Source: Isoetes taiwanensis
Taxonomy: Eukaryota; Streptophyta; Lycopodiopsida; Isoetales; Isoetaceae
Assembly (NCBI GenBank): GCA_021234155.1
Contig: JAJEKV010000003.1
Span: 22,659,569 to 22,723,568 of the forward strand
DNA length: 64,000 nucleotides
Direction: 5' to 3'
The stretch's first letter is position 1. Every line of letters begins with the position of its first letter. Shown piece after piece: positions 2,295-56,878 of this stretch. The notes beneath the pieces are model-generated. The model did not search any database and was not told where the DNA came from. It saw nothing but the letters and a program-made list of their open reading frames with translations. The position numbers were made by a program, and so were the translations under genes.

Positions 2295-2299
2295 AGAGA

Positions 2300-20850: not shown

Positions 20851-22402
20851 CATAACAGTGAAAGTGGCATTAGAAATATTCGGGAAAAGAAGGAAGAGAA
20901 AGGAAAATAATGCCTTCAAATCTTCAATATGGTATGACGATGAGTGCAAGGAACAGAGAAGGAAAGTCAAGGCGCTCAGAGGTAAGGAAACATATCAAAA
21001 GGAAAGAGCGATATATCTAAAGTTACTGAAAGCAAAGAGGAATAAGAATCTGATGCAGCATCAATGGGGACTGGCCAAGCTAATCAAGAAACAACCACGC
21101 ACGTTCCGGGGTGGATTTAAAGAGAAAAAAAGGGAATAAGGGAAGTGAAATCACTGGGGGCAGCATTGGAACAAAGGGGATGGGAAAACTATCTGGAAAA
21201 ACTATATAAGACAGGGGCACCCCCAGCACCAATACCTGAACTGCAAATAACGGACCGACCATGCTTCGACGTACAGGAAGTGATGATAGCATTGAATGGG
21301 ATGGCCAATAACAAGGCCCCGTGACTTATACTGGATTAATGCGTGGAAGTACTAAAATGTGCGAGATACCATTATAGTAAAGCGGTGTGAGATATTCAAT
21401 GGTATAATACACACAGGGCTCCCGGACAGATGGGCGTACAACAGGGTCATACCCCTACACAAGGGGGGAAGTAAACAGGAACCTGGAAACTACAGGACAA
21501 TAATGGTAAGTTCCATTTTCGCAAAGTGGTACGGGAAGGTTCTAGACAATAAATTAAAGCAATGGGCAGAGGCAGGAAATTTGAGAGCACAGGGGCAAGC
21601 AGGCTTCAGACCAGAACACTCAATAACAGACCATCTAGTGACCCTCCGGATACTAATAGAGCATAATAGAGGCCACGGAAAGAAAGTGATATGCTGTTTT
21701 GTGGACTTCAGAAAAGCTTTTGACACAGTACCAAGGGAAAAGCTTATACAGAGGCTTGTAGACATGCAAGCACCGAGAGACATGGTAGGGGCAATTGCGA
21801 GATTGTACTATAATGTATATGCAAAAATAGAAGAAGAAGGAAAGGCAATAGACTGTGACACAGGAGTCAAACAGGGATGTCCCTTATCTCCAACACTGTT
21901 CGGAATATATATAGATGCCCTACAGGATTTTATAGCAGAACAGCAAGGGGACGTGGACGCCCCTACACTCGGGGGAATCAAGGTACCTATCATGCTATAT
22001 GCTGATGATTTGGGCATGATGGCCACAAAGAACAAGGGAATGCACAGGTTATTGAAACTACTAGAGATCTTCTGTGAAAAGACAGGGCTAACAGTGAATC
22101 TCACAAAAACCAAAATAGTCTTTTTTGGTAACAGGAATAATCACAAGTCGTTCAAATATCTAGGGACAGACTTAGAAGAAGCAACAGAGTACAAGTATCT
22201 AGGGTATGATACACATGGCACAGGGAAATGGGCGAAAGGGGCAGATGCTAGATTCCAAGCAGCAATAGGAAGCTACTATAACATGAAAACTTCAAATGTA
22301 AATGTAAATGTAATAATAGAATGGAAATTAAATGCTACCTATTCGCACGGTAGTAAGGGTCACAACATAGCTATACGGGCGGAAGCCCGGGGACCGGGCT
22401 AA
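20708..22402 (+). pseudogene. LINE ORF2 reverse transcriptase
   Basis: A helical linker (20708-21139) leads to the polymerase in one open stretch of 347 residues (21359-22402). Motifs: NRVIPLHKGGSKQEPGNYRT, GFRPEHSITDHL, VDFRKAFDTVPR (first catalytic Asp), GVKQGCPLSPTLFGIYID and IMLYADDLGMM (YADD, about 21990-22020). QGCPLSP differs from the QGDPLSP of typical flowering-plant L1s. The core looks intact. The start is uncertain because the frame shifts before 21359. Confidence 0.9.
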
Positions 22403-34130: not shown

Positions 34131-34522
34131 TGTAGAATTATATGTGCTATGGTTTTTATAAACCATAGAGAAGCTAATGGTCATTGAATATTATTGTTTG
34201 GTAATGGTTCGATGATTTTGAATCTTACCATTAAGCATATTTCTAGATAACCCTAAATTCTAGCTCGGTGAACAGTATCCCGGGCCAGGTGGAAATAAAA
34301 GCTTTGATCTAGCTGCCGATTAGATCAACGAGTAGATATGATGATGGGGTTGCATTTTGGTGATCCCCTAATATATTTCTGTGATGGTTGCATTGTATGC
34401 ACGGTTGATTGATTGTGAGAATGAATTGAATTCGTACATTCATTTTTTGCTATAGTTCAATTGTGTGACATTGATGCAATAGGATAAGGTATTGTAGTCA
34501 GTTGATAAATTATTATCTTTCA
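34131..34522 (+). repeat. 5' LTR of copia copy 2
   Basis: 392 bp, TGTAG...TTTCA, matching 6883-7279. Preceded by AGCAT (34126-34130). Confidence 0.95.
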
Positions 34523-34523
34523 T

Positions 34524-34535
34524 TGGTATCAGAGC
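34524..34535 (+). other. tRNA-iMet primer binding site of copia copy 2
   Basis: TGGTATCAGAGC one base after the LTR, complementary to the 3' end of initiator methionine tRNA. Confidence 0.92.
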
Positions 34536-34548
34536 TAGATAGAACAAT

Positions 34549-35823
34549 GTCCACACGTTTTGGAGCTACATTGCTAAGTTACGTTGAAGTATTTCGGGGA
34601 TTGGAGGCTTTTCGGATATGGAAAGAAAGAATTAAAGAAGTCTTACAATTTGAAGGATTATGGCATATAATTGAGTCTAATGGTGGTGTTGATGATGAAG
34701 CTAGCAAAAAAAGCAATAGGAGAGGCTTCAACCGCAAAATCACGGAGAGTCTGCTGCAAAATCTAAAGAGGTAAGTGTTAGTAGTGATAGAACAAGTGAT
34801 GACTTGAAAATAAGTCAGGCTAAGGCTATAATTATGTGCAAGGTTGCACCAAGCATAATGCTTAAACTGAGGGATTTGAGTCCTAGAGATGCTTGGAAGT
34901 ATTTACTCAAGACATATCAGACGAAAAGCTCATCCCAGATAGATGTTCTGGAAAAGGAAATTAGAAAGATGAGATTTGATGAGAAAACTGAGCTGACCAC
35001 AATGTTCCATAAGTTTGATTCCCTTTGTGCAGATTTAGAGGCAGCAGGGGTAACTATGTCTGTAAGTCATCAAATCTTGGCAATTTCCAAAATGTTTGCT
35101 AATTTTGGGACCTTGGCTACACTAATAAGGACTGTAGCTAGGACGAGGAAAGAGGCTGAGCAGATTGCAAGGACTGAAATAGAGCAGAAGTCTGGTGTTG
35201 AAAATGAAAATGAGGATGAGGAAGATTCTGCAGAAGTGTTAGTGGTAAAAAAGGGAAAAGCCTATAATGACAGAGGTAGGCAACTTGGTCCATGTTTTGG
35301 TTGTGGGGAAGTAGGGCATTTGAAATATAACTGCCCAAGAAGTGGTCAGAATGTGAGGACTTGTTACACATGTGGAGGAGTAGGACATGTGGCGTCTAAA
35401 TGCCCAAGCCCAAAGGACAGTGGCAGGGGCAGGGGCAGAGGCAGGGGCAGGAATAATTGGAATACAAATAGAGGTCGAGGCAGGAGTGCCAAAGCAGCTA
35501 GCACAAATGTTGTTGTTGTAGAATGTGAGGAGGAAGATTCAGAAGAGGAGGTAACAAATACTTTTTCTAATTATTTGAACAAAGTACAAAATGCTGAAGC
35601 ATCTTTTGTTGTAGATTCGAGAGCTGAAAGAACAATCATAGGATCTTCAGATTGGCTGACAAGATGTGATAAAGAGCAGAAGACAAAGAATATACATTTG
35701 AGAGATGGTAGGGTTAAAGAAGTGAAGGCTGGAGGCATGCTGAAATTATTTGATTTGCAAGGAAGACCAGTAGAAATAGAAAAGGTTCTTTGTGTGCCTT
35801 CTATAGTGAAAAAATTGATTTCT
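34549..35823 (+). pseudogene. Copia gag and protease (copy 2)
   Basis: Begins MSTRFGATLLSYVEVFRGLE just after the primer site; the frame breaks at about 34770 and resumes in a 351-residue stretch from 34804. Features: gag helices with PRDAWKYLLKTYQTKSSSQI, two intact CCHC knuckles (CFGCGEVGHLKYNCP and CYTCGGVGHVASKCP, about 35300-35405), a GR-repeat stretch (about 35420-35470), and the protease motif VVDSRAERTIIGSS with Arg where active proteases have Gly. Better preserved than copy 1. It ends where the retroposon enters. Confidence 0.9.
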
Positions 35824-37057
35824 TGGCAAGGACAACAGACCTGGTTTACTGCTGCATAGTTCTGCAGCTTCCACAAGGTCTCCGGCCAGGGGAGCTGTGC
35901 TTCAGGTTAGTGGTCAAGTTCATGGGGAGAAGCTCTAGTTAGATATGTCCTTTCTTGGTGACTTCTAGTATGCTGGCTGGGAGAAGGAATACAGTTTTTT
36001 AGGAAAAAATGCAAGCTGAGCTATAGTATTCATTGCTTGAGGAAGAAGGACAACACTGCGTAGTACAGAAACCTTGGCCAGAATATTTTTCGGAAGGGAC
36101 CTTTAAGGCTGGGCAAGAGGCACTGGAAAGAACGGATGCTCTCCTGTAGTACTTTGGTAAGGGAAGAAGAAGACGATGCTTTCATTTCTAGTACTAGGCT
36201 GTAAACATTCTTTGAGCAGATGCCAGGGGTGGACAAGAATGAGATATATTGAGTGGAGCAGCTCCTCATAATATGTCTGCATTTATTTAGATGATTTTGT
36301 GGTAGTCTGCTTAACATGTAACAGGGCCTGCGCTCCCCTTTCCCAGCAAGGGGTGGCTTGAGTACTGGCAGTCAGGATGTGTGGGGCAGCTTGAGAGCCA
36401 TGGGCTTCTAGTGGGCGGGAGACCCTAGAAATGTCTCACTCTTGGTTCTGCAGGTAGACAAGGCCTGCATAGCTAGATGCAGATGGGCTTGGCTCGGTTC
36501 AGGATTCTAGCGGTGATGCCCCTGCTGGTTTGCTTGGTAAGAAGACGGTTGAGTGCTGCACACACCGAGGCACTCCCTATAGTACTGCTAAAGCATCTGG
36601 TTGGATCATCACTATTTTCGGGAGGAGCGTACAGAGGATCCTAAATTCTTGCTTGGTGGCAGATCAGTGCACTTGGCTGCTCCGTTCTTCTATGACTCTC
36701 TAACTCAAGTCTGGTTTCTTCGTTTTATCTTAGGGCCAACTTTTTTGAAGCTGTGATGCAATTGGGGCATAGGGAAAGACAAGAGTTGTGCTCCCATAGT
36801 ATCTGTCTGGAGAAGAGGCCGGGTAGCTCCTGTCCAGTAGCTGGCCCCGGTTGCATCACTAGGGTCTAGGAATTTAGTCCTCCTCTCCTGTAGTATCCGA
36901 TGGAGAAGAAGTTGAGAGGGATTCTAAGAGTACTAGGCCTAGAGTATGGACTGCTATTCATGGATCGGAGAAGTGGTAACAGTTCCGTACTCAACTGTAT
37001 GTACATAAATGTTTTATCATTCGAATAAAATACAGTTTCTTGCCTTCAAAAAAAAAA
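35824..37057 (+). mobile_element. Polyadenylated non-autonomous retroposon in copia copy 2
   Basis: Inserted in the gag-pol junction: copy 1 runs uninterrupted at 1095-1110. It ends with AATAAA (37024-37029), 20 bp of sequence and a run of about 15 A. The flanks repeat AAAATTGATTTCT (35811-35823) and AAAATTTTGATTTCT (about 37060-37074), a target duplication of LINE-type insertion. There is no long frame. A loose motif, TAGTA followed by GG-GAAGA, recurs about six times. Reading: an RNA without coding capacity moved by LINE machinery. Confidence 0.85.
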
Positions 37058-37059
37058 AA

Positions 37060-38736
37060 AAAATTTTGATTTCTGTAAGTCAATTAGTTGACCTTGATTA
37101 TCAGGTCCTATTTGACAAGCGTGTTTGTAGAGTTGTGAAAGATAATAAAACATGCTTTTTGGGCAAAAGGGTTGGAGATCTCTTTGAGTTGGATGTTTTT
37201 GAAAATGTGCCAGCAGTTAATCATGTATCAATTTCCAGTTATAAAACTTGGCATGAACGTTTAGGACATACAAATATAAACAATGTGAAAGCTCTGGACA
37301 AACTTGGATACATTAATGCTGCCAAAGAAGATCAGAAGAATTTTGTTTGCGGGGGTTGCATGGTAGGAAAAAGTACTCAACTTCCTTTTGGCAGGAGATT
37401 CAAGAGAGCAGAAACACCATTGGAACTGGTTTATACAGACATATGTGGCCCACTTAATATAAGAAGTCTTTCTGGAAAAAAGGTATTTCATCATCTTTAT
37501 AGATGATTTCACTAGAAAAGCAAAATGCTACTGTTTAAGAAAAAAATATGAAGCTTTGAAAGCATTTAAAGAATATGTGAATGAAGTAGAAAGAGAAACA
37601 GGGTACAAAGTGAAATGTTTAAGATCTGACCGGGGTGGTGAGTATATCTCAAAGAATTTTAAGGCCTTTTGCATTGAGAAGGGAATTAAAAGACAATTAA
37701 CATGTAGGTATTCTCCCAATGAGAATGGGGGGTAGCAGAAAAGAAAGAATAGAACATGTTTAAATGGTCGGTCTATGCTAAAGCATCTTTGGATTACCAA
37801 ATATGTTGTGGGAAGAGGCATTGAAGACGCAATTTACATACAAAGCAGGGGTTCAAGTGCAAGTATTGATGGAGAAATACTCGTTCTTTGTGGTCTTAAA
37901 CGAATGCCATCATATGAAAGGTTTAGAATCTATGGTTGCTTGGCATATGTACACATTCCAGAAGAATTGAGAAATAAATTAGATGACAGGGCCTTGACTG
38001 GTTTTTTAATTGGATATGATGAAGAATCTAAGGCATATAGGTGTTATGTCCCAAGCAGGAGGAAAATAGTGATAAGCAGGGATGTTATGTTCTCAGAAGA
38101 ACAGCTATATAAGGATCTTAAGGATCTGGATGTACAAAACAAGAAGAAGACAGTTGAAATGGAAAACACAAATCATAAGTCTGAAATTGATAGTGATGAT
38201 GATGGGGACTCAGACAAAAAATCACAGGTTGGCATAGAGGATAATAATCCTGACAAAATTGTGGGAAAGAATATTGTGGGAAACAGATGGATTTTCAAGA
38301 TAAAAATCTTCCAGATGGATCAAAACAATTTAAGGCTAGACTTGTTGCTCAGGGATTTACACAGCAAAAGGGAGTTGATTATAATGACACGTACTCATCA
38401 ATAGTGAAATTATCCAGCATAAGAATTATGCTAGCACTGGCCAACTCAATGAACTGGAAAATTCATCATATGGACGTTAGTACTGCATTTCTAAATGCAG
38501 AGTTGGAGGAAGAAATTTATATGAAGCCATCCTTAGGATTTGAGGAGAAGAAAGATAAAATATGGAGGTTAAAGAGGGCAGTATACGGACTTAAACAATC
38601 ACCTAGAACATGGTATACATGTATGGATAAATATCTCATAGAACAGGGATTTGCAAAGCTGAATGGAGATGGGAATTTGTATGTATTCAAGCAGCATGAT
38701 CATTTTTGTCTCATTGCACTTTATGTAGATGATCTC
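37060..38736 (+). pseudogene. Copia integrase and partial reverse transcriptase (copy 2)
   Basis: Continues from the retroposon. Integrase pieces carry WHERLGHTNINN, CGGCMVGKS, TDICGPL and RSDRGGEYIS. The catalytic Glu region (about 37715-37745) is garbled relative to copy 1, and the frame shifts at about 37490. The reverse transcriptase spans 38287-38736 with DNKLP-type start, IHHMDVSTAFLNAEL and ALYVDD. Translation then runs into unrelated LLPLSIPVSEK. Stop and shift positions differ from copy 1, so the two decayed independently or were read with different errors. Confidence 0.9.
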
Positions 38737-40247
38737 TTACCTTTGTCCATTCCTGTTAGCGAGAAGACGGAGATGGAGATGGAGATGGAGACGGAAATAT
38801 AGGCGGAGACGGAGATTGAGGATGGAGCTGAGGATGGAGCTGGGCTGGCGCTTTCTGCTAACCGGAATTGCCGCTCAAGGGCTCAAGAGCTCCAGGCGTC
38901 GCAAGATCTTGAGTGGTCTTGAGAGTGGTTTTTCTTGTTCTTGCTTACTATTATATAGTTCTAGGGTTACGAAGATCTGCCTGAATTCCCGCTAATTTTT
39001 ACGGCCGTCTACCTTAAATGCTAGTCTTATCGTAGTCTTGTCCTACGCTGTCTTTTCGAATTTCGTACACGGATATTCGCGACCTGGCTCCTTAGCTACT
39101 TAGCTTACCTACGTCTGTTTCGTCCTCTTCTCTATTATCATTATTTCATTCTTACACATCCTTTAACGCTCTTCCGCTTGAGCTGCCACGTGTCCCGCCC
39201 CCCCTTAAGTGTGTAGTCTACTTTTGTTATTCCCCTGTCGCCACGTATTCCGTCTTTTTTATTTTTTTTTTATTTTATTTTTTTCATGTAATTTTAAACT
39301 CAGCGATATTTATCTCACATTTATTATTCCCACACCCCATTTCCTTTTCTTTTATATTCGCTATTATTTCATAATATTGTTATTTCCTTGCTAATTCGAA
39401 TTTTCATGACCGTTGTGTATCTGTTGGCGAATATGCTTCCGATTCTCGTCCTCCATCCTGCTCGACCCATAGCTCCGTTAGCTATGCTGTGCTGATTGGC
39501 GTCACCCCTTCTTCTGTTCCATTGACCTTGCCCTCTTCCATTATTAAAACTAGCACTCCGATACTCCCCTTTTCGAAGCTCTCATGGATCTGGCTACAGT
39601 TCTCTTGTAGTTTTAGCATTTTTAGTAATTTGCAATACTATCTGGTTCTCCGACTACAATTGGCTACTTCTGCTAAACCTAACTTACAATCATACTGATA
39701 ACAACACAGATTGGAAAGTAAATCACATATTACTGACCTGTTTATCGCTATATTCCCTCGATCGCCAATCGCCCCAACGCCCCATCGCCCATCGCCCCAT
39801 CGCCCATCGCCCATCGCCCATCGCTTTCCGCCCACCGCCCATCGCCCATCGCTTATCGCCATCGCTTATCTAATTCTTGTGTATGATAATTAAAACCTTG
39901 TTTATGTAACAATAAGTCTAAACCAGGGTTATTGTTTAAATAATCACGATCTAAAAGTCGTTAAATATTGCAAAGCTTAGAGTGAATATAATTGTACTAT
40001 CGAAAGTAATGTATCCGATACTATGATAATGTTAATTCATAAATATTACCTTAGGGTAATTATGTTAATCACATGCATTAAAGGAGCCAGCAGAGATCAT
40101 GCAGGTTTCAAGTTAATCTACGCATGCAGCCTATGCTAGGTATGGGTTGCATGCGTATTTACCGATGATGGGACCACCACGGGGATCTCTAGAACGTGGT
40201 GTAATGTCAATGTAGGCATGACCGCGGTTCCACTTGGATGAGTGGAA
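38737..40247. other. Low-complexity and unassigned sequence between copia 2 and the Ty3 cluster
   Basis: Starts with GGAGAT/GGAGAC hexamer-like repeats (38762-38840). T-rich and C-rich stretches follow without a recognisable gene. No LTR boundary could be found, so what truncated copia 2 is unknown. Confidence 0.45.
39770..39868. repeat. CGCCCATCG minisatellite
   Basis: About ten tandem units of CGCCCATCG or CGCCCCAT with a few CGCTTATCG variants. Confidence 0.9.
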
Positions 40248-41992
40248 GGTAGATTAAAAAGTCTACTTCCGTCCCACGGAAGTAGACGACCTCGAGAGAT
40301 AAGAGGTCATTCAGGAATGCATTGATAGGAAAGCACCTCTAGTCAATGCCTACGGGAAGGACCCTATCCTCCACGTCTCAGGCAACTAAAGGTGTAGGCA
40401 TAAGTGGCATATAGGCATTATAGGGCGCTGTCTCCACGACCACGATGGAAGAAGCATCCTCTTCCTATGCTGGGAGATTAGTCATGCATTCATGTAGATA
40501 GATGGGGTGGTTCCCTTATAACCAACTTTACATTAATATTCTAGCGTGGTGTGAATCCAGGAGGCCAATGAGAACGAAGAACCGGCGGGGAGTCGCATCA
40601 CGAGCACTTGTATAGATAGTTCTAGAGTAGTTATGATTTCTACCATTTAAACTAATCGCTTAAATCTTGTGTGAGATAGTAAGTATGTAATTATAGATAT
40701 TGTAAAATTAATGCAGGATTTCAAGATGCAAAGACTTGCAACACAAATTTTGTTATAACGTGTTGCAAGGGACGAAGAGTACCTTGGAAGTGTAAATTTT
40801 GTATGAAATTGATAAACTTTGATAAACTTAAATGTTGTATTAAGTAAGGTTAGTAATTACTTTGCGTTGATTAAGTTATGAAGTGATAAGTTAATTGGAT
40901 AATGAAATAGTACAGTAATGTCTTAAACATTACCTTAGAGTAATTCTAATAATTGTGTAACTATAATAATAATTGCATGCATCAAGTTGGTTGCAGGATA
41001 GGAAGATCCCAAGGTGGGGAGAACCTCGATGCTGCGGACATCATCATTTTAAGGTGGGGAGAATGTGACGTTGCAGTATAACATACGATATGAATACGTA
41101 TATTATACTGACACGTCATTAGTACATGTCGACTCAGACGACATGTACACGGCGACCGTAAAGGGTAGTACCCTAGGGTACGACCTTGTGAATCATTATA
41201 TTGCACATGTTAAAGCAACATGTGAATATAATCCCTTTTTGCCACGTGGCAATGACCCATTGACCAAAAAGGGACCAGCCCTAAATGCGTGGAGATAAAG
41301 GGGGCCCCTGAGTCTCGGATTGGAGCAGCAGAGGACGCATTTCCGCCTGAACGGAAGCAGAGAAGTCGGATCTCCTAGGTTGCAGCTCGATCCAAGATCA
41401 GCAGACCCGAGATCAGCAGCATGGACGCTTTCAGGGGAGTGGGAACCAGCCAAGATGCGGGTGAGCAGTTGATTCGATAGGTAGATCCGAGTTATCATGC
41501 CTCTTTCAGTAGGTTTAGCATTCATTCTTAGCTATAGGCAACCCCTACAGCCTAAGAATGATAGACACTAACAAAGGAACCTAACCATGTATGATTAAAT
41601 AGATTAGAATAGATGTATTCTATTATTTTCAGTTCTGTTGTGATGATGTTTTGACATTCTATGCGCCACTCTTGTGTATTGGGAAGGGGGGTAGAGACCC
41701 AGAGCCCAAGAAGTTGTATGATCGTAGTTTTAGTCCATTAATTCCCAATTAATACGGTCTGTGCATAAGAGCCCGCCTGGCTGTGGGTGGCGGAGCTAGA
41801 CCGGCTAACAAGGAAGGGCTTGTCTGATCACAGTTGATCCCTCTGGTGCGTAGCGACGGCCGGGGAACATTGTGGGCTAGGCCTAATACCCTGGCACTGC
41901 GTGCGGGCAGGGTCTGGGCTCGACACCTCTTGGGTGATGCGTCATCTTCTAGGGGTTCAAGTCGTATACGAGCAGTGGCTCTCTAGCTCGCC
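40248..41992 (+). mobile_element. Remnant of an older Ty3 element: 3' region and 5' part of its 3' LTR
   Basis: 40248-41050 matches the 3' untranslated region of the complete element (about 52937-53632), with AAGAGGTCATTCAGGAATGC and the ending AAGGTGGGGAGAA, the purine tract. An LTR starts at 41064 (TGTGACGTTG) and runs 929 bp before it is cut at GCTCTCTAGCTCGCC by the LTR of the complete element. The remaining LTR part is at 55203-55801. Confidence 0.88.
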
Positions 41993-43558
41993 TGTGACGT
42001 TCCAGGATAATATACGGCACGAATACGTATATTATACCGACACGTCACTAGTACATGTCGACTTAGACGACATGTACGCATCGACCATAAAGGGGTAGTA
42101 CCCTAGGGTACAACCTTGTGACCGATTATATTGCACATGCTAGGACCACATGTGAATATAATACCCTTTTGCCATGTGGCAATAGCCCATTAACCAATCA
42201 GGGCCCAGCCCTAAAGTCGTGGGGATAAAGGGGCATTAACCCTAAAAGGGAAACCTTTTCAGTTCCCAGCCCCATAGGTCGGATTGGAGCAGCAGTGGAC
42301 GAATTCTCGCGTGAACAGTAGCAGAGGAACCGACATTCCTTAGCAGCAGCTCCATCCAAGCCAGCAATCTCGAGATTCAGCAGCATGGATGCCTTCAGAG
42401 GAGTGGGAGCCAGCCAAGAAGCCGGTTAGTGGTTGATCCGATAGTTAGATCCGAGTTTTCAGTCCTCATTCCATAGGATTAGTGTTCATTCTTGGCTATA
42501 GGCGACCCCTACAGCCTAAGAATGATAGATACTAACAAAGGAACCTAACCATGTATGATTAGGTAGATTAGAATAGATGTATTCTATTGTTTCAGTTCTG
42601 ATGTGATGTTATTGTGATATTCTATGCGCCACTCTTGTGTATTGGGAAGGGGGGTAGAGACCCAGAACCCAAGTAGTTGTATGATCATAGTTTTAGCCCA
42701 TTAATTCCCAATTAATGCGGCCTGTGCATAGGAGCCCGCCTGGCTGTGGGTGGCAGAGCTAGACCGGCTGACAAGGGAGGGCTTGTCTATTCACGGTTGA
42801 TCCCGCTGGCGCGTAAAGACGGCCGGGGAACGTTGTGAGCTAGGCCTAATACCCTGGCACTGCGTGAGGGCAGGGTATGGGCTCGACACTCGTGGGGTGA
42901 TGCGTCGCCTTCCAGTGAGTTCAAGTCGTATACGAGCAGTGGCTCTCTAGCTCGCCCGTGGGTAGCATGAACCTTCTGGAGGAGAGAGATCTCCTCCTGC
43001 CTCATTGGGGCTGGGGAGATGCAACCCAGTAGCAGTAGCCCCCCTGGCTATTCACCCGCAGCTACGGTCGGGGCTCCAATACTTTTCACCCTATCTCGCA
43101 TAGTATGCGGGGGGGGCGGATGGAGTGGACTACCCAACGGCCATGTTCCTTTGCCAGCCAAATCCATTTGCCATGAACTCTGTCTGCATTGTTCTCTGGA
43201 GACCCCAAGCTGTCAGTCGACCCCCATGAGTCAGAGCCTGGGTAGGATCTTCCCTATGTTATGTTGTTGTACTGATGTGTGATGCAGCTACTGTGATATG
43301 GTGGACCACCCTTCGAGGTGGGTATATTATTATTGTTTGATGCTATGTGCTCATGTTTTGTTTACGCTTCCGTTGCTAGGTCGATCCCGAGGGAGACGGG
43401 ATGAATGACACGTCCATTCTTCCCCGTCGGGTTCTTGGCCACCATCGAGGGCCCGATGTTAGGTGGACGGCCTCACATCAGCGGGCAGATGCTGGTTTGA
43501 GGGATGATCTCCAGTTTGTATACGATCGGGGCATCGTATATGAGCTGGGGCCGTCACA
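41993..43558 (+). repeat. 5' LTR of the chromovirus
   Basis: 1566 bp, TGTGACG...GTCACA. Near its start lie two palindromes: GTACATGTCG/CGACATGTAC (42051-42077) and ATTATATT...CACATG/CATGTG..AATATAAT (about 42124-42161). These could serve as regulatory sites in U3. It is conserved with 53646-55202. Confidence 0.93.
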
Positions 43559-43559
43559 A

Positions 43560-43571
43560 TGGTATCAGAGC
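43560..43571 (+). other. tRNA-iMet primer binding site of the chromovirus
   Basis: TGGTATCAGAGC, two bases (43559-43560 region) after the LTR. Confidence 0.93.
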
Positions 43572-43813: not shown

Positions 43814-44305
43814 GACTCCAAGAGTGCGCCAGGAGCATGTTAGGTTCAGACCTAATGACCCTCTCGCGCACTCTTAGAGTAGTCACCCCATATGAACCCT
43901 AGAACTTGACCTTAGGAACTCCAAATGGTAAAATAAAAGATGAAATCCCAATCAAAAAGCTCGAAATAGCTAGGATTGTATGTTTAAACATCGAAAAACA
44001 TTAAGCACAAGTCACTTTTGGAACAGCGACTCCAAGAGTGCGCCAGAGCATAGTTAGGTCCCGACCTAACACCCCTCCCGCGCACTCTTAGAGTCACCCC
44101 TAAAAGTGATCCTTAAAATTGATTATAAATTAATCAAAGGGTCAAAGTAATAATAGGATCTTGTTTAGAATGCTTAAATTAGTGGGTAACAGCATGTAAA
44201 TTGTGTAAATTGGGGGTGTTGGAGCAGAGAAGGCCGACGACTCCAAGAGTGCGCCAGAGCATAGTTAGGTCCCGACCTAACCCCCTCCTCGCGCACTCTT
44301 AGAGC
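43814..44305 (+). repeat. Three hairpin repeats upstream of the H3-like gene
   Basis: Copies at 43814-43883, 44028-44095 and 44239-44305. Each has an outer stem ACTCCAAGAGTGCGC against GCGCACTCTTAGAGT and an inner stem TTAGGTC against GACCTAA. Starts are 214 and 211 bp apart. The 140 bp between copies shows little similarity, so only the hairpin is kept. Confidence 0.92.
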
Positions 44306-44395: not shown

Positions 44396-44424
44396 AAACC
44401 CTAAAAATCCAACCCTATAAATTA
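44396..44424 (+). promoter_or_regulatory. Telo-box and TATA box before the H3-like gene
   Basis: AAACCCTAA (44396-44404) followed by CTATAAATTA (44415-44424), about 105 bp before the ATG. AAACCCTAA boxes near TATA are known from many plant housekeeping promoters. The same pair precedes the second extra gene, which suggests individual promoters, inferred not proven. Confidence 0.6.
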
Positions 44425-44526: not shown

Positions 44527-45729
44527 ATGGCTAGGACCAAACAGACCGCCCGCAAGCCAAAGAAGGACGATAGGCCCAGCGCCCAGGTGCTCGCAGCTGA
44601 ACAGAAGCTCAAAGACGCTGACGAGAAACTGAAGGCGGACATGGAAAGGCGGCCTAGGTATTACAGGAATTTGGAGAAGAGGCGGAGGAAAGAAGAAAAG
44701 GCAAGGAGGAAAGAAGAAAAGGCAAAGAAGAAAGAGGAAAAGGCAAAAAGAAGAGAAGAAAGAGCCAAGAGTAAGGAGGAAAAAGCGAGAACAGAAGCAG
44801 ATGAGGAGGTTGCAGAACCAAAAGACGACCAATGGCGGGAACAAAGAACCAAGAACAGAGAGGACCCCGACCCCAAAGGAAAAAGAGTAATGACAGAAGA
44901 ACCCCGGCCTAAGAAGAGAAGAACCTCGGTCGGCGTATCTATAAACGAACCAACCGAAGGCGAACAACCCCCAACCTCGTCGGGGGAGACTGATGTTGCA
45001 GCGGACTTCTTGGAGGAGGCGCTCTTCGGAACAGGAGAAACTTCACAGCCAAAACCTAACCCTCATCCTGATGCAGATGAAACGCTGGAGGAAGAGCCAA
45101 TCCCAACTCCAAACGCAGCGGAGACACAGATTAACCTACCCCCGCCGTTGCCCCCACCCTTTTTGGAATGGCAAGAAGCAAACAAGCTAGATGCAGAGAA
45201 GGCAGCTGGCAAGAAAGCAACCAAAGTCGCCAGGGAGTCGTACACCTTGGGACCGGAAAGGAGGTACAAGAAAGAATTGGCAGATTACAAGATATACAAG
45301 AAGATGCACGAGGACTACGTAGCCTATTACGAAGCAAACAGAGTCAAAGTAGTCGAAGGAGGTAGGCCAACTCGAGAAGCATTTCAACTCAAACCCCCGC
45401 CAGAACTGCCAGAACCCCCGAAGAAGCCTATGAAGAGGTCCCAAGACTCCCCTTTTGCTAGAGCCTTGCGGGAAATCAAACACTTCCAAAGGAGCTACGG
45501 ATTCCTCATCCCGAGAGCAGCATTCCAGAGGTTCGTCCGAGAAATCTTGTGGGAGTTCGACCCCAACAAGCGAGTAACCAACGACATGTTACTCGCTTTA
45601 CAAGAAGCAGCAGAGATGGAGGTTGTGCAGCACTTCGAAGATTCATTAGCATGCACTCTCCATGCAAAAAGAGTCACCCTTCAACCAAAGGATATGAGAC
45701 TGGCTAAATCCATCAAGAGGAGAGACTAA
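44527..45729 (+). CDS. Histone H3-like protein with a 300-residue internal linker, in a retrotransposon
   Basis: A single intact 400-codon frame. Residues 1-10 (MARTKQTARK) equal the histone H3 start including K4 and K9; residue 11 is Pro where H3 has Ser10. Residues about 25-100 are Lys/Glu-rich repeats (KEEKARR-type, likely coiled coil), K129-R132 (KKRR) is a probable nuclear signal, and about 140-310 is acidic and proline-rich. Residues 313-400 align to the H3 fold without gaps from ALREI to the end, about 42 of 88 identical by my count: FQR-VREI, ALQEAAE, FED, HAKRVT, PKD. The Cys, His and Asp of the H3-H3 interface remain; K56 is Arg and K79 is Asp. Expected to pair with H4 in nucleosomes or bind H3-tail readers (inference). 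A polyadenylation-type AATAAA follows at 45790. Confidence 0.93.
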   Translation: MARTKQTARKPKKDDRPSAQVLAAEQKLKDADEKLKADMERRPRYYRNLEKRRRKEEKARRKEEKAKKKEEKAKRREERAKSKEEKARTEADEEVAEPKDDQWREQRTKNREDPDPKGKRVMTEEPRPKKRRTSVGVSINEPTEGEQPPTSSGETDVAADFLEEALFGTGETSQPKPNPHPDADETLEEEPIPTPNAAETQINLPPPLPPPFLEWQEANKLDAEKAAGKKATKVARESYTLGPERRYKKELADYKIYKKMHEDYVAYYEANRVKVVEGGRPTREAFQLKPPPELPEPPKKPMKRSQDSPFARALREIKHFQRSYGFLIPRAAFQRFVREILWEFDPNKRVTNDMLLALQEAAEMEVVQHFEDSLACTLHAKRVTLQPKDMRLAKSIKRRD

Positions 45730-45789: not shown

Positions 45790-45795
45790 AATAAA
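45790..45795 (+). terminator. Possible polyadenylation signal of the H3-like gene
   Basis: AATAAA 61 bp after the stop codon, in AT-rich sequence. Confidence 0.45.
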
Positions 45796-45871: not shown

Positions 45872-46148
45872 ACTCCAAGAGTGCGCCAGAGCATAGTTAG
45901 GTCCCAACCTAACCCCCTCCTCGCGCACTCTTAGAGTCATCCGGCCAACTGCTGCATGAATTAACCTTAATTGTTCAAAACGTGGTAATTAAACAAAGAA
46001 ACTCGCATTTAAGAAGACAAAGTAATAGGAATTACCCCTACCAGCGGACATTTTTGCAGCCATTGACACAAATATGCGAGCGACTCCAAGAGTGCGCCAG
46101 GGCATACTTAGGTCCCAACCTAACACCCCTCCCGCGCACTCTTAGAGC
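45872..46148 (+). repeat. Two hairpin repeats between the extra genes
   Basis: Copies at 45872-45938 and 46082-46148, 210 bp apart, with the same outer (AAGAGTGCGC/GCGCACTCTT) and inner (TTAGGT/ACCTAA) stems as the three upstream copies. Confidence 0.92.
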
Positions 46149-46298: not shown

Positions 46299-46340
46299 AG
46301 AAACCCTAAAAATTTTAGGGCATAAATTCCCTATATATAC
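46299..46340 (+). promoter_or_regulatory. Telo-box and TATA box before the second extra gene
   Basis: AAACCCTAAAAATTTTAGGG (about 46300) then CTATATATAC (46331-46340), about 110 bp before the ATG. Order and spacing repeat those before the H3-like gene. Confidence 0.6.
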
Positions 46341-46450: not shown

Positions 46451-47975
46451 ATGGCTACAGAAGCCTTCATCAGTTGGTATAGCGCCTCCCCCCACATCAC
46501 TGAAGTAGATGTCAATATAGTATTCCAAGTATTTCAAAAAGAATTTGACCTTTCAGCAACCCTGAACTCCAATCCTTTCTGCCAGCAAGTCCTGCAAGAA
46601 TTCCAAGAGAAAGTTGTCCCTAGCTTACAGAAGATACCACCATGCATAGGGTACTTTGTACCAAGGACCGCATTGCAAACAGCCCTCAGTCATGTACCCA
46701 ATATTGCCAAGGCTTTGAGGAACAGAACCAACCGCTTACCAACCTACATGACCCTAACAAGCAATGGCAAAGTCTTCTTCTCCTACAACACAGCCTTAGC
46801 GCTATATCTAGTATATAGGGCAGAAACCGTAATAGGTGAACCATCAATTCAGCCACTAGAGGTCACACCCTTGGACGCGGCAGACCCATGCAGATTTAGC
46901 GCCCCGCTTGAGTACGAAGAGACCATAGCGAAGCAGCATCGAAGAGAGTGAAGACTCCAACAGAAAGCGAGGATGACATAGAGGTGGACCCGGAGGAGGA
47001 ACGCCGGAAGTTTAACAAGACATCACCCGCCGGAAGGCGATTGGGACCACCCCGAGGATTGCACAACCAATCGGGCTGGGAATAACAAGTCTAGCACCAA
47101 TCATAGTCGAAGGACAAGAATACTTGCTGCCAAATGACATCAAAAACCTCCCCGAATGCAGGGACAGAGGCTACCGCGTCGATGAACTCCTTCACCTCCT
47201 ACGGCAACAGCCGGATCTAGAAGACTTCATCGACCAAGAAACGGAAGATTTTCCGGTACAAATACGAGAAGCAACTACTTACACAGGACACACCATCTCA
47301 GACATTGAAGCATATGGCGCTATTAGAGGTATGATGACAGAAGAACTTCCTACCGAGGAGGAGTTTATAGCACTTCAGGAGCAGATGGGAATAAGGGGGA
47401 AGACAACAAGAGTACTTCAAGGGGAGTCTTCTTCCTCACAAGAACAGGTAGCAAAATTCCAAGGGAGAGCCACAAACCTAACAAGTGTACGATCGCTCTT
47501 CCACGATTACAAGGAATTAGTTCAAGTACCCGTCGACCAGTATGCATCAAGGCACAGGGGCATCTCAGGGGCACGTGGAGGAGTACCGGGAGCAGCACTC
47601 AAATATTATCTTCCGCTCCTAACAGACGGTAGGGTAATAATATTTCACAAGCGCTTCAGCCCACGCGGAGAGGAAGCTGTGCAGATGCTGGTAGCACTTT
47701 CGGATTTTGGCATGCACGCACGCCTATCAGAAAAGGTCGACCATGTCATTTTGGTGAAGCGGAAAACAGCCTTCGGCATCTTCGACTTTGCAGTACCACA
47801 CCTTCGACAAGGTAGGTTAGCAGTGACAGCAGCTCATACCTCCCATAGACGGGTGGAAGAGCTAGCATCTGCCATCTGAGGGGGATCAGCAAGGGATATA
47901 CTCAGGAACTTGGGAAGTACAGTAGGTACAGCCCAAGTAAAGAAGTTCCTTGAGGATCACCCCGACTATCAGTAA
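46451..47975 (+). pseudogene. Second extra gene of the chromovirus, unknown function
   Basis: About 500 codons if two frame changes (about 46950 and 47020) and one in-frame TGA (47877) are set aside; the frame past the TGA stays open to TAA at 47973. The N-terminal part (46451-46950) is mostly helical and contains IGYFVPRTALQTAL. The middle is acidic (SEDDIEVDPEEE), then IVEGQEYLLPNDIKNLPECR and a long C-terminal part ending FLEDHPDYQ. No catalytic motif, zinc finger or membrane segment is seen and I recognise no family. The IGYFVPRTALQ stretch resembles YGFLIPRAAFQ of the H3-like protein, a weak hint of shared origin. Confidence 0.55.
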
Positions 47976-49559: not shown

Positions 49560-51135
49560 GTGGCGGTTCCCATAATTTCAGCGTCACCAAGGATGGCACA
49601 AATGCTAAAGTTGAAAACACTAAAGTCTAAGCCCGGACCAAGTAGTGTTGTTAGCCAAGCCATAAGGCACACTACCGGGCAAGAGAGTGAATTTCAATAT
49701 AGACTTACCGGGTATCAATATTGAAATGGGAGCAGAGATCATGAGCATAGGGAAATATGACCTCATCAAAGGTATGGAATACCTCAACCCGGCGAAAGCA
49801 CAAATAGATTGTGGAGAGCGGAAGGTGAAGCTCACAGCGCCTAACGGAAAAATCATAGAAATCTCAGGTAAGCAAGTGACACCTATAATGCAATGCATGT
49901 CGAGTAAGAAATTACTTAGATGCATCAAAAGGGAGCAAGTTGCATACATCTTCAAATTAGAACTTGCCGAAGAAGAGGCACCAGAAGATAAGGAAGATAA
50001 ACCAGTAAGCAAACTACCCAAGCAGGTAGCCAAGCTAATAGAGGAATTCCATGACTTGTTCCCCCAAGAAATCAAGGAGCTTCCGCCATATAGGGGAGTA
50101 GAGTGCGAAATTGCACTTGAACCAGGCACTAAGCCCACAAGTAAAGCACCATATAGAATGATAGCTCACGAACTATCAGAGTTGAAGAAGCAATTACAAG
50201 AGCTCTTAGACCTAGGGTTCATAAGACCTAGTGTCTCTCCGTTCGGAGCCCCCATCTTATTCGTCAAAAAGAAAGATGGAAGCCTGAGGATGTGTATTGA
50301 CTATCGTCAATTAAACAAACACACAATCAAGAACAAGTATGCCTTACCCAGAGCAGATGACCTGATGGATCAGTTACAAGGTGCCAGGGTCTTCTCCAAA
50401 ATAGACTTAAGGTCTGGATATCATCAAATTAGAATCAAGGAGGAAGATATTCACAAGACGGCCTTCCGAACAAGATACGGCCACTATGAATTCACAGTCA
50501 TGCCATTTGGCCTATCAAATGCCCCAGCAACATTCATGAGACTCATGAACGATATCTTTCGGGAATTCCTTGACACATTTGTTATCGTGTTCTTCGATGA
50601 CATCTTAGTGTATAGCAAGTCCCTAGAGGAGCACATTCAACATTTGAGAAGGGTACTTGAGAAGCTGAGAAGGCACCAGCTTTATGCGAAATTGTCGAAA
50701 TGTCATTTCGCCACCGAAAGAGTGGAATACTTGGGGCATATTATATCAGCGGATGGCATCTCCACCGATCCGGCAAAGATCCAAGCGGTGATTGAATGGC
50801 CAGCACCAAAGAACATACACGAGGTGAGAAGCTTTTTAGGCTTGGCAGGATATTATAGAAAGTTCGTCAAGAACTTTGCTAAGATAGCAGCCCCCTTAAC
50901 GGACCTCACCAAGGCAGAAAAGATAAAAGACTGGGTGGCACATTGGCAAAAGAAGGCTCAAGCAGGATTTGAGAAGTTAAAGGAGGCCTTAACAACCGCC
51001 CCTGTCTTAACACTGCCTGATCCAGAGAAGGACAAGCTAGTCGCAACGGACGCGAGCAAGATTGCGACGGGAGCAGTCTTAATGCAAGAGGAAAGAGTGG
51101 TAGCATACGATTCACGAAAGATGAATGACGCTTGA
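49560..51135 (+). pseudogene. Ty3 protease end and reverse transcriptase
   Basis: One frame of 482 codons (49687-51135). It starts inside the protease (the Asp-Ser/Thr-Gly motif is not found in the damaged part upstream), with [20 protein letters not shown] as the typical post-active-site end. The reverse transcriptase follows: [66 protein letters not shown] and [13 protein letters not shown] (about 50580-50620), so the box is F-DD. RNase H begins with [15 protein letters not shown]. The frame ends at 51135 at a short frame-changing difference. Confidence 0.92.
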
Positions 51136-52700
51136 GACTTCGCTACCCGACACATGATCAGGAGCTATTGGCAGTAGTAAGAGCTTTAAAGATCTGGAGA
51201 CACTATCTATTGGGAAGGAAGTTCCAATTAGATACCGACCACCAGAGTCTGCAGTACATCTTCACGCAACCATTGTTGAATCTAAGACAAAGAAGATGGA
51301 TGGAATTCCTCGAAGAGTACGACTTCGAGATTGTATACAAGCCGGGGAAACTCAATGTGGTCGCAGACGCTCTGTCAAGGCACCCCTTAACAACAAGGGT
51401 GCATTGCAATGCCATATCAACACTCACCAGTGAGTTTGGCAAGAAAATAGAAGAAACGATGCCAACAGACAAGGACTTCCAGGAAGTATGGGCTAGCCTC
51501 TCTAAGGAGGCAAGAACGGACAAAGAGAGAGAAGCCTTCAAACATTTTAAAAAGGAAGGAAAGCTCTTGTACCATAAAAATAAGTTGTGTGTGCCAGAAT
51601 CATCCGGCGTCAGAAGGTTGATTCTCCATGACACCCACAACAGCCCAATAGCCAGCCACGCAGGGTTTACGAAAACCTACTTCAAGATAAGAAGTAGTTA
51701 CTATTGGCCAGGCATGAAGAAGCAGATAGCAAGGTACATACGCGAGTGTCAGCTATGCCAGCAGACCAAAGCGGAACAACTACGAATTCCAGGAGCATTA
51801 GAGCCATTGCCAGTACCAAACTCCAAGTGGGAGATAATAAGCATGGACTTCATTACAGGGCTCCCTAGAACCATAAGGGGCAAAGATGCCTTAATGGTCG
51901 TAGTCGACAAATTGTCGAAGATGGCGCACTTTGTGCCTTGTAGAAGCACCGACATGGCATTAGACACAGCGGTGCTATTCACAAAGGAGATTTTTAGACT
52001 CCATGGGATGCCAAGAGAAATAATCTCTGATTGAGATTCGAAGTTCATGAGTGCATTCTGGTAGGATCTCTTCAGCACCATCGGAACGAAATTGTCAATG
52101 AGCACAGCTTATCACCCTCAGACAGATGGGCAGACGGAGCGCACAAATCGGATACTCGAAGATATGCTGCGTAATTACGTCTGGAACAAGCAATCGAAGT
52201 GGGATGACTTCATTTACTTGGTTGAGTTCGCATACAATAGCACCAAGCAAGAGTCATCCCAAATGTCGCCGTTTATGATCAACTACGGCTATCAGTGCTT
52301 GACACCAGACACTTGGCACAACCCTGTGTCCAAGGTAGAAGTATCCCGAGATGCTGCCGAGATGCAACAATTGGTTGAAGAGGTGCGAGGATACCTCTTA
52401 GCGACAGCAAAAGCGAGGCAAAGAGCATAGCTGATCGGCCTTAGAAACGGTAAAGGGAGTTCAAGTAGGGGACAATGTTTGGCTAAAGATAAAAAGTCAA
52501 ACAAAGCGAAACTCCGCGACGGCAATTGCAAGAAGCTTGCTCCAAGGTGGGCTGGTCCATTTAAAATTGTCAAAAGAGTAGGTAACCAAGCCTACAAATT
52601 GGACTTACCGGCACACCTCAAGATCCATAGAGTCTTTCACGTAAGTCTCCTAAAGAAACACACTCCTAATCCAGGAGGAAGTATTGGGACACCGAAGTTT
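51136..52700 (+). pseudogene. Ty3 RNase H end and integrase
   Basis: RNase H ends with YPTHDQELLAVVRALKIWRH and VADALSRHPL. The integrase has an HHCC finger (HDTHNSPIASHAGFTKTYF, CQLCQQTK) and the DDE core: D in ISMDFITGLP (about 51840), D in EIISD (about 52030) and E in GQTERTNRILED (about 52130). Two stops in the core are C-to-T changes: TGA at 52032 in place of CGA, and TAG at 52062 in place of CAG. After 52430 a shifted frame carries PRWAGPFKIVKRVGNQAYKL and KIHRVFHVSLLKKH, the usual end before the chromodomain. Confidence 0.92.
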
Positions 52701-52714
52701 CTTGGAATTAACAG

Positions 52715-52945
52715 ACGATCAACTTGAGATTGTCCACGAGGTTCTTCTCGACCGATCTTATAAGAAGGCGAGAAGATCTAAATTTCTCCATTACCTTGTG
52801 AAATGGGCCTTTACGGTGGAGGGACGCTACGTGGGTACTACAATCAGATCTTGAGAAGCGGTACCCACAATTCATGGAGCAATGCAAGGGTCAGCTTCGT
52901 CCAGAAGTGGTGGGCTCGAACCGATGGGTGAGTGAGGTAAAGTAG
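52715..52945 (+). pseudogene. Chromodomain at the integrase C-terminus
   Basis: Translation gives DDQLEIVHEVLLDRSYKKAR and FLHYLVKWAF, then after one frame change DATWVLQSDLEKRYPQFMEQ, ending at TAG 52943. HYLVKW and ATW are the chromodomain hallmarks and hold the aromatic cage that binds methyl-lysine in H3 tails. The position after the integrase defines chromoviruses. The frameshift lies in the loop between the halves. Confidence 0.82.
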
Positions 52946-53645: not shown

Positions 53646-55202
53646 TGTGGCGTTTCGGGATAAATATACGACGCGAATCGTATATTATACCGACCGTCAC
53701 TAGTACATGTCGACTTAGGCGACATATGCGCGCATCGACCATAAAGGGGTAGTACCCTAGGGTACAACCTTGTGACCGATTATATTGCACATGCTAGGAC
53801 CACATGTGAATATAATACCCTTTTGCCATGTGGCAATAGCCCATTAACCAATCAGGGCCCAGCCCTAAAGTCGTGGGGATAAAGGGGCATTAACCCTAAA
53901 AGGGAAACCTTTTCAGTTCCCAGCCCCATAGGTCGGATTGGAGCAGCAGTGGACGAATTCTCGCGTGAACAGTAGCAGAGGAACCGACATTCCTTAGCAG
54001 CAGCTCCATCCAAGCCAGCAATCTCGAGATTCAGCAGCATGGGCCTTGAGGAGGAGTGGGAGCCAGCCAAGAAGCCGGTTAGTGGTTGATCCGATAGTTA
54101 GATCCGAGTTTTCAGTCCTCATTCCATAGGATTAGTGTTCATTCTTGGCTATAGGCGACCCCTACAGCCTAAGAATGATAGATACTAACAAAGGAACCTA
54201 ACCATGTATGATTAGGTATGTATTCTATTGTTTCAGTTCTGATGTGATGTTATTGTGATATTCTATGCGCCACTCTTGTGTATTGGGAAGGGGGGTAGAG
54301 ACCCAGAGCCCAAGTAGTTGTATGATCATAGTTTTAGCCCATTAATTCCCAATTAATGCGGCCTGTGCATAGGAGCCCCCTTTGGTATGTGGTGGGTGGC
54401 GGAGCTAGGCCGGTGACAAGGGAGGGCTTGTCTATTCCGGTTGATCCCGGCTGGGCGTGAAGGCGGCCGGGGAGCGTTGTGAGCTAGGCCTAATACCACT
54501 GGCCACTGCGTGAGGGGCGGGGTATGGGCTCGACACTTTCGTGGGGTGATCGTCGCCTTCCGGTGAGTTCAAGTCGTATCTGGCGGTGGCTCTCTAGCTC
54601 GCCCGTGGGTAGCATGAACCTTCTGGAGGAGAGAGATCTCCTCCTGCCTCATTGGGGCTGGGGAGATGCAACCCAGTAGCAGTAGCCCCCCTGGCTATTC
54701 ACCCGGCAGGCTACGGTCGGGGGCTCAATACTTTTCAGCCTATCGCATAGTATACGCGGGGAGGAGGCGGATGGAGTGGACTACCCAGCGGCCATGTTCC
54801 TTTGCCGGCCAAATCCATTTGCCATGAACTCTCATCATGCATTGTTCTGCGGAGACCCCAAGCTGTCGATCGACCCCATGAGTCGAGCACGGGTAGGATC
54901 TTCCCTATGTTATGTTGTTGTCTTGATGTGTGATGCGACTCTTTGTGATATGGTGGACCACCCGCCGAGGTGGGTATATTATTATTGTTTGATGCTATGT
55001 GCTCATGTTTTGTTTACGCTTAGTTGCTAGGTCGATCAGGGAGGCGGGATGAATAACCGTCCATTCTTCCCGTCGGGTTCTTAGCCACCATCGAGGGCCC
55101 GATGTTAGGTGGGCGGCCTCACATCAGCGGGCAGATCTTTGGTTTGAGGATGATCTCCGGTTTGTATACGATCGGGGCATCGTATATGGTAGGGCCGTCA
55201 CA
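53646..55202 (+). repeat. 3' LTR of the chromovirus
   Basis: 1557 bp matching 41993-43558. Begins TGTGGCG where the 5' LTR has TGTGACG. Many differences are at CTG or CAG. Confidence 0.92.
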
Positions 55203-55801
55203 TCCTTTGTGATTGGCATGAACCTTACGGAGGAGAGTGATCTCCTCTGCCTCATCGGGGGCTGGGGAGATGCAACCCGGTGGTAGCCCCCTTTATGAAC
55301 CCAGCAGGCTACGGGCAAGCTCTAATACTTTTCAGCCTATCTGCAAAGTATGCACAGGAGGGGCGGATGGAGTGGACTACCCAACGACCATGTTTCTATG
55401 CTAGCCAAATCCATTTGCCATGAATTACATGCGCATTGTTATCCGAGACCCAAGCCGTCGTCTTTCCCCAAGAGTCCCGAGCACGGGTAGGATTTCCCCA
55501 TGTTATGTTGATGTACTGATGTGTTGTTGCAGCTACTGTGATATGGTGGACCATCCTTCGAGGTGGGTATGTTATTGTTGATTGATATCATGTGCTCATG
55601 TGTGTTTACGCTTCCGCAGCTAGATCGATCCCGAGGGAGACGGGATGAGTGACACGTCCATTCTTCCCCATCCGGTCCTTGGCCACCAGCAAGAGCCCGA
55701 TGTTAGGTGGACGGCCTCATGTCAGCGAGCAGATGCTGGTTTGAGGGATGATCTCCAGTTTGTATACGATCGGGGCATCGTATAGGAGCTGGGGCCATCA
55801 C
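55203..55801 (+). repeat. 3' part of the LTR of the older Ty3 element
   Basis: Corresponds to the last 600 bp of the complete LTR (from about 42958) and ends GGGGCCATCACA. With 41064-41992 it completes the LTR that the younger element entered. Confidence 0.85.
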
Positions 55802-56878
55802 AGTATCCACATGGTGGGGGAGAAAAGATGATGCTCTCTTGAGTACTGCATTGGTAAGTGGAAGAATGCAGATATCATATGGTTGCAACACCTGTGGTTA
55901 AATAGCAGATGGACTAGTTGTACGAAGCACAAGCAAAGAATTTCCTCTGCTAAGGAAGGTGATAGGACAATGTTACGGGAGATCCTGAAGAATGTCAATT
56001 ATGTGTCAGGAGTTGTTGGGTTACAAGAAAGGTGGCTACTCGATGGATGTCAACATTACAGTGTGTCAAAGATCTATCAGTCTCTAGGTCAAGACGTTCC
56101 GTTAAAAGCAGAGATAAGACTGGGAATGAGTAACGTCGTGGCTAAAGCAGTTTTGGCCAATTCTTAGAAATCCATCATCTCCAAGAAGATTCAATTCTTC
56201 ATATGGATGACCCTTGAAGGGGGGCTAAGTACAAATGTGAGTTTATATAACAGGGGTATAACAGATGTAGACAAATGCTCATTTGGATGTTTGGTTCGGG
56301 AATCCATTGGGCATCCATGATCATGGTTGGATCACGATCTTTTGCCCCATGATCATGGAGTACTGGCATTGGGTTAGCCCCATCATTCGTTTGTCTGTCC
56401 TCGAATTAGAATGGTCAGGACTGATATTGATCTCAGATAGAAGCTGTATTGATTCCTCACTTGTGAACATTGCTCTTTGGCTGGTCTGGAAATACCGTTG
56501 CAGTTTATGCATTGAAGGGCTTGAGATTTCTATTGCAAACTAAAAAACATGTTTAATCTGGAAGTAGCATTGATGGGTTTATCGCACCATAGGCAGAAGG
56601 GTAGGAGATATAACAAAATACTTGATAGACTAGGTGTTTTGGAAGGATTCTATTCCTTCTTTAGATGCATTTGCTCAACAAGGATGGGATAGAGGAAAAT
56701 GATGCCGACAATGTTGCTGCAAATGTGGCAGTTATTTAATGTTAACTATATCGAGTATCAAGTGGGGGTTATAGGTGTGGAAAAGGAGTTGCCTCTCTCT
56801 ATAGTACCTACCCTTTGGAGAAGACTCGTGATCCCCATATAGTATCCACATGGTGGGGGAGAAAAGATGATGCTCTCT
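55802..56878 (+). pseudogene. LINE-derived remnant in segment A' (matches 8122-9137)
   Basis: Same open stretch as in segment A: GDRTMLREILKNVNYVSGVV to AVLANS, then FFIWMTLEGGLSTNVSLYNR. A 55-bp sequence beginning AGTATCCACATGG and ending CTGCATTGGTA occurs at 55802 and again at 56838, bracketing the remnant. In segment A only the downstream copy exists and is split by the 7 kb transposon. Confidence 0.55.

Follow-up and report, generated by a model that had tools for sequence, protein, structure and literature searches.

A histone H3-type gene under purifying selection in a Ty3/chromovirus retrotransposon of Isoetes taiwanensis

The element and its histone gene

The window analyzed in this study, a stretch of 64,000 nucleotides from the lycophyte Isoetes taiwanensis (assembly GCA_021234155.1, contig JAJEKV010000003.1, positions 22,659,569 to 22,723,568), contains a long terminal repeat (LTR) retrotransposon of the Ty3/chromovirus kind that carries a gene for an H3-type histone. 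The histone open reading frame (ORF) occupies positions 44527..45729 of the forward strand, encodes 400 amino acids and was identified from the ORF list, Pfam and PDB matches, and alignment with H3. It lies between the primer-binding site and gag of the element, as the original prediction, made from this DNA alone, had placed it. All features of the element given below are on the same strand. The 5' LTR (TGTGACG...GTCACA, 41993..43559) is repeated as the 3' LTR at 53646..55203, which is preceded by a polypurine stretch. An exact match to the primer-binding site TGGTATCAGAGC, which we take to be of the tRNA-Met type, adjoins the 5' LTR at 43560..43571. Downstream of the histone gene, Pfam matches identified gag (PF03732, 48114..49055), reverse transcriptase (RT; PF00078) with the start of RNase H (49666..51132), and RNase H and integrase broken into frames (51129..52427), followed by profile matches to the integrase C-terminus (PF24626) with a decayed chromodomain (52431..52942). 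The LTRs, primer site, gag, and the order of RT, RNase H, and integrase are those of Ty3/Gypsy chromoviruses. The chromodomain was recognized in the family on a frame from another copy (PF00385, 40.7 bits, E=2.2e-10), the window's own piece scoring below the PF00385 cutoff (E=0.04).

The histone gene had been described as the only long frame of the element without a stop. No other ORF of this copy is complete, but the RT frame at 49687-51135 (482 codons), a fragment of the broken polyprotein, is longer. A further gene, ORF2 (46451..47972), lies between the histone gene and gag and is broken by frameshifts here. Its product has approximately 500 residues; the pieces searched gave no Pfam match, and the best match of a piece among PDB sequences reached only E=0.12.

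Over 1538 aligned sites, the two LTRs are separated by 85 substitutions and 25 gap events (Kimura two-parameter distance, K2P, 0.0577), and no clear target-site duplication was seen by eye at 41992/55204. The element is inserted into the LTR of an older relative, the halves of which (41064-41992 and 55204-55802) differ from the 3' LTR by a K2P of 0.227; pieces resembling the 3' end of this relative were found at 40235-41063.

The encoded protein

The histone protein consists of an H3 tail (residues 1-10), a lysine-rich helix (approximately 19-95), a linker extending to residue 308, and an H3 fold (309-397). Its N-terminus reads MARTKQTARK, matching ARTKQTARK of H3 exactly. The curated core-histone profile PF00125 matches residues 298-394 (E=2.7e-21; 76.5 bits against a cutoff of 26.4), and H3 chains in the PDB match the fold in sequence at E~1e-19; a chance resemblance to H3 is ruled out by these scores. 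The fold is identical to plant H3 in 44 of 89 columns (49%), close to the earlier hand count of about 42 of 88, in an alignment without gaps, including through loop 1. The profile match, the gapless H3-type sequence, and the H3 N-terminus identify the protein as an H3-type histone and bear out the claim of an H3 tail and fold in one 400-residue ORF.

AlphaFold2 predicted helices at 309-324, 330-344, 352-371, 373-382, and 387-397 of the fold with moderate confidence, in a pattern that we take to resemble αN, α1, α2, and α3 of H3, as well as a long helix at 19-95 with confidence. The structural matches shown for the predicted model come from nucleosome or histone entries, to whose chains it superposes with high root-mean-square deviation. 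The alignment contains a KKRR stretch resembling a nuclear localization signal, read as PKKRR in the window and in a copy from a sister family and as QKKRR in copy L037. The stretch ERRPRYYRNLEKRR at residues 38-55 of the histone protein (P0001) is nearly invariant among the family copies shown and missing from the sister copy.

When the whole protein was searched, histone proteins were among the matches, mostly covering approximately 22% of the query (best 120 of 256). No relatives of linker residues 100-308 were found among 596 candidates drawn from 5.8 billion predicted proteins, nor any of a three-row linker alignment among 8000 scored candidates from the same collection. A scan of viral contigs gave no confirmed match.

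A lengthened loop 1 is the defining trait of CENH3. An origin from CENH3 was rejected, since the alignment with canonical H3 is gapless with no lengthening of loop 1 and the genome has matches nearer to canonical H3; host CENH3 was not searched. The spelling LIP.A.F in the element histone is presumably CENH3-like.

Copies in the genome

The histone protein was searched against the 1.66-Gb genome, and the best 104 of 38310 first-look candidates were scored. All 104 matched the histone protein, with varying coverage and decay, and many of the matches listed are full length, stop-free, and 72-95% identical to it. We fetched 41 distinct copies, mostly chosen as intact, so that counts of intactness mean little while rates inside the copies are informative. 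A frame of 380-410 codons starting with MAR was obtained from 29 of the 41; two of these (L041 and L048) carry internal frameshifts and were set aside, so that 27 entered the analysis.

Neighbourhoods of 9.9 kb were compared for 20 copies. Histone, ORF2, gag, and RT follow one another in that order in 16 of them, with the histone frame at the same position in the element, and the exact primer string lies 942-990 bases upstream of the histone ATG in 12 and 1518 bases upstream in one more. The remaining four (L065-L068), which are the most diverged, have LTR and leader sequence in common with the family, and no ORF2, gag, RT, or integrase match was detected in them at E 1e-8. In L067 and L068, an intact histone ORF is followed by sequence resembling the 3' end of the element and an LTR, with no gag/pol match between, and these two copies look like a non-autonomous subfamily that retains the histone. 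L065 and L066 diverge past the histone, L066 having other long frames there.

Among the RT matches listed, 22 are 94-100% identical and 65 are 86-89% identical to the element, forming two groups. For 14 of the 22 family matches, a histone lies within 20 kb on the same strand; none is listed for the other eight, the histones considered being the best 104.

Selection on the histone

An open frame in the window copy alone, in which the original prediction had seen a hint of selection, is weak evidence: roughly a dozen stops or frameshifts were counted by eye in approximately 6.3 kb of ORF2, gag, and pol, and 1.2 kb would escape such hits about one time in ten by our estimate. The claim of selection therefore rests on the other copies, which support it.

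The pooled ratio of nonsynonymous to synonymous substitution rates (dN/dS, Nei-Gojobori) of the 27 intact copies was 0.138 for the whole histone protein, 0.055 for the fold (bootstrap 0.030-0.088), and 0.032 for tail residues 2-10 (bootstrap 0.009-0.063). Tail and fold, analyzed separately, are both far below 1, and neutral evolution was not seen in either. The remaining regions gave 0.105 (residues 11-45), 0.057 (46-90), 0.249 (91-210), and 0.130 (211-308). With the two frameshifted copies added, the ratio was 0.155 for the whole protein and 0.123 for the fold. The pairs with the lowest dS showed the highest dN/dS (0.35, 5 pairs), and distant pairs gave approximately 0.11-0.13, as expected if inserted copies decay while their source lineages are under selection.

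As a yardstick, the other genes were compared in the window and 16 copies, chosen for intact histone frames. In this set, dN/dS was 0.100 for the histone, 0.046 for its fold, 0.097 for RT, 0.088 for RNase H-integrase, 0.164 for a second integrase piece, 0.144 for gag, and 0.145-0.162 for ORF2. These values indicate that, in copies so chosen, the histone is about as constrained as the core enzymes of the element.

Within the tail, K9 and R2 are kept in all 27 copies, K4 in 26, and R8 in 25. Position 10, which is S10 in H3, is P in 19 copies and V in eight; because a phosphorylatable serine is replaced, the usual phospho-switch beside K9 cannot work. The idea that the tail is the single most conserved stretch of the family was rejected, as 34 of 290 linker windows have a proportion of nonsynonymous differences as low, 16 with a proportion of synonymous differences (pS) at least as high. 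Taken together, these elements have an H3-type histone among their selected genes, with purifying selection acting on tail and fold.

A sister family

One of the 65 sister RT places, L069 (RT identity 88%), was picked for its long open frame, and the 6 kb upstream were read. This copy contains a primer site, a 427-residue histone ORF, ORF2 open over 528 codons, and gag. A first impression that the sister family lacks the histone, based on 0 of 65 RT matches overlapping the histones listed, was discarded, since that list holds the best 104 and the sole sister copy fetched has the gene.

The sister histone scores 94.6 bits against PF00125. Its first 11 residues equal those of the window, although eight of the ten codons after Met are synonymously changed. 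The two folds agree at 56 of 85 residues (66%) with saturated synonymous sites (pS 0.908), the linkers are 32% identical, and the sister fold shows 59% identity to H3. Across the 27 copies and the sister copy, 28 fold residues equal those of H3, including R83, C110, H113, K115, R116, T118, and L126. We assume for these residues the roles in DNA, H4, and H3-H3' contacts that they have in H3: R83 as the loop-1 arginine, K115, R116, and T118 in loop 2, and C110, H113, and L126 at the H3-H3' face.

Hairpin arrays and other putative cis signals

Hairpin repeats of approximately 66 nt flank the histone gene. A repeat search found three before it (43815..43880, 44029..44094, and 44240..44305) and two after it (45872..45937 and 46083..46148), all on the forward strand and spaced 211-214 nt within each group; the segment 44240-44310 folds at -31.2 kcal/mol (z -8.9). 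In total, 95 copies of the repeat occur across 21 stretches, one of them the window. Four hairpins are present in the sister copy (L069 positions 319-2450, reverse strand), two on each side of its histone gene; they differ in sequence but are similarly built. Covariation within the family gave a mixed picture: double-change cells numbered 35 against a shuffle mean of 18, a value reached by 0 of 500 shuffles, and double-change pairs numbered six, reached by 88 of 500.

In addition, a possible TATA box (TATAAAT, 44416..44422) lies 111 nt upstream of the histone ATG, and CCCTATAAATAG occupies a comparable position in the sister copy. A possible polyadenylation signal (AATAAA, 45790..45795) lies approximately 60 nt past the histone stop codon, and a second possible TATA box (TATATAT, 46332..46338) is located upstream of ORF2, these motifs also being on the forward strand. 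The TATA-like motifs of the histone and ORF2, the AATAAA, and the hairpins suggest that the genes are expressed separately and have cis signals specific to the element on either side.

Other H3 and H4 matches in the genome

A search with canonical H3, in which the best 150 of 9031 candidates were considered, gave 15 full-length matches at 97-99% identity, presumably host genes, followed by at least 135 more with 72-87% identity. A tally of the first 64 in this second group placed 26 in open frames of at least 400 codons and 35 in frames of at least 300. A control search with H4 gave 69 candidates, all scored, of which 16 are full length at 99-100% and 27 are partial or decayed, in frames of at most 176 codons. 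In this one control, H4 lacked the excess of intermediate matches that H3 shows, and we infer that the 72-87% matches sit in transposons. Identity of the folds to H3 is graded, at 49% here, 59% in the sister copy, and 72-87% in the further matches, which fits the proposal that an H3 gene was captured by the element and its tail enlarged.

Remaining features of the window

Pieces of two Copia-like copies, recognized by reading and 93-97% alike, were observed at 1-2295, 5382-7279, and 34131-38733, with a primer-site match at 34524 within one piece. An ORF at 21359-22402 reads by eye like a non-LTR (LINE) reverse transcriptase. An Rfam scan of the window found no family at gathering scores.

Comparison with known systems

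Our literature searches on retrotransposon-encoded histones, with subscription papers mostly outside their scope, found no such element, in agreement with the earlier statement that no described Ty3 element has this cargo; a DNA transposon with an H3-like gene is, however, in print. Manning et al. 2013 described a hAT DNA transposon of Pyrenophora tritici-repentis carrying an H3-like gene, H3L, which is the closest precedent found (PMC3538342). Both systems have a transposon-borne H3-like gene and both long, likely autonomous and short, non-autonomous forms. The H3L element is a fungal DNA transposon with inverted repeats and 26 very similar copies, and the passages of that paper that we compared contain no test of selection (PMC3538342). 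In contrast, the Isoetes element is an LTR retrotransposon with diverged families, measured purifying selection, and an arm of approximately 300 residues between tail and fold.

Single core histones are also encoded by viruses, including a bracovirus H4, a xenomavirus H3, and a Dishui Lake phycodnavirus H3 (PMC9145170). Like the element histone, these are lone histones of a parasite, several with a lengthened N-terminal tail, and are thought to join host nucleosomes. Unlike it, they come from DNA viruses or virus-derived elements; the folds of the viral single H3s are 73-87% identical to possible host H3, and tail additions of 35-68 residues occur in three of six. The text of PMC9145170 contains no word beginning with "retrotransposon". 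In functional terms, viral single histones with longer tails are the parallel of the element histone.

Plant Ty3 elements can carry additional frames termed eORFs (PMC6317226); a histone eORF could be present in the supplementary tables of that work, which lie outside the passages compared. In Phalaenopsis, Gypsy elements contain an AlkB/2-ODD ORF for which a role against host control has been proposed (PMC9289625), likewise an accessory ORF of a Ty3-type element resembling a host protein. The orchid elements are Tat-related, whereas copies of the Isoetes element have a chromodomain, and the screen of 121 angiosperm genomes in the same work yielded 15 extra domains, with no histone among those named in the section concerned. 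VANDAL elements, with their anti-silencing protein VANC, also combine an element-encoded protein with element-specific repeated motifs that differ between related elements; VANC binds DNA motifs and removes DNA methylation, and the passages compared do not describe it as a histone (PMC5735166). The Isoetes hairpins, known here from their sequence only, could be analogous to the VANDAL motifs, which we offer as a lead only.

Possible function of the element histone

In the explanation that we consider best, to which we give a probability of roughly 0.45, an H3 variant made by the element enters chromatin and disturbs silencing based on K4 and K9. The protein would be nuclear, judging from its residues and the KKRR stretch, and its conserved residues are consistent with pairing with host H4. 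Its arm of approximately 300 residues would present an exact copy of H3 residues 1-9, and the protein would be incorporated into chromatin, with most benefit into the chromatin of the element itself. There, the K4/K9 tail could occupy or misdirect the enzymes and readers of H3K9 and H3K4 methylation, and silencing would be eased. The original prediction had offered the placing of a marked or mimic H3 in chromatin, or the titration of silencing factors, as possibilities. A broader proposal, which we put forward more tentatively, is that several chromovirus families in this plant genome have a common chromatin system, in which an H3 variant, its long arm ending in a K4/K9 tail identical to that of the host, and family-specific hairpin arrays, with repeats approximately 210 bp apart, would set up nucleosomes of the element's own, so that H3K9 silencing is escaped or redirected.

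The exact tail would also serve in a soluble decoy that never enters nucleosomes and titrates H3K4/K9 enzymes, readers, or H3 chaperones with its tail and fold, and the 300-residue arm and an altered chaperone site could hinder nucleosome assembly. A free tail peptide, however, would need no fold with a dN/dS of 0.055 and kept DNA- and H3-H3'-contact residues, and we regard a decoy as unlikely. The chromodomain at the integrase end in the family raises the alternative of an anchor for integration or targeting, with the element H3, in host chromatin or on the cDNA, serving as the target that the integrase chromodomain of the element reads. Inspection by eye shows the first and third aromatics of the chromodomain cage to be missing, as in plant type II chromodomains, for which the partner is given as unknown in the passages compared (PMC3350952, PMC6317226), and L067 and L068 retain the histone without a gag/pol match, although an integrase made elsewhere could serve them. 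A direct link from the tail to the element's own chromodomain is possible, with a cage that looks incomplete; as an account of the gene, however, anchoring appears improbable.

The lysine-rich residues 46-90, with their low dN/dS, and the position of the gene in the same internal region as gag would fit a packaging role, in which the basic protein, acting as an additional nucleocapsid or core histone would, compacts the RNA or cDNA of the element within particles. Such a role leaves unexplained the exact K4/K9 tail common to two families and the flanking TATA and AATAAA motifs, and we consider it distinctly improbable. Finally, retrotransposons commonly capture host genes, and the gene could in principle be a copy of a host H3 picked up at random and carried neutrally. 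A neutral passenger was rejected on the dN/dS of 0.10-0.14, as low as that of RT in the same copies, and a second family keeps the gene at saturated synonymous divergence; the chance that it is a mere passenger is very small.

Transposons are silenced via H3 marks, and an element that keeps an H3 with the exact marked residues would make the arms race testable at the substrate itself. The element histone opens the questions of whether its tail is methylated, by whom it is bound, and where it is located. In addition, the element offers natural H3 folds diverged to approximately 49% identity under selection, a divergence that is rare for H3. If the broader proposal of a common chromatin system is true, these elements of Isoetes would be the first LTR retrotransposon lineage with a selected core histone in its gene set, present in hundreds of copies in one genome.
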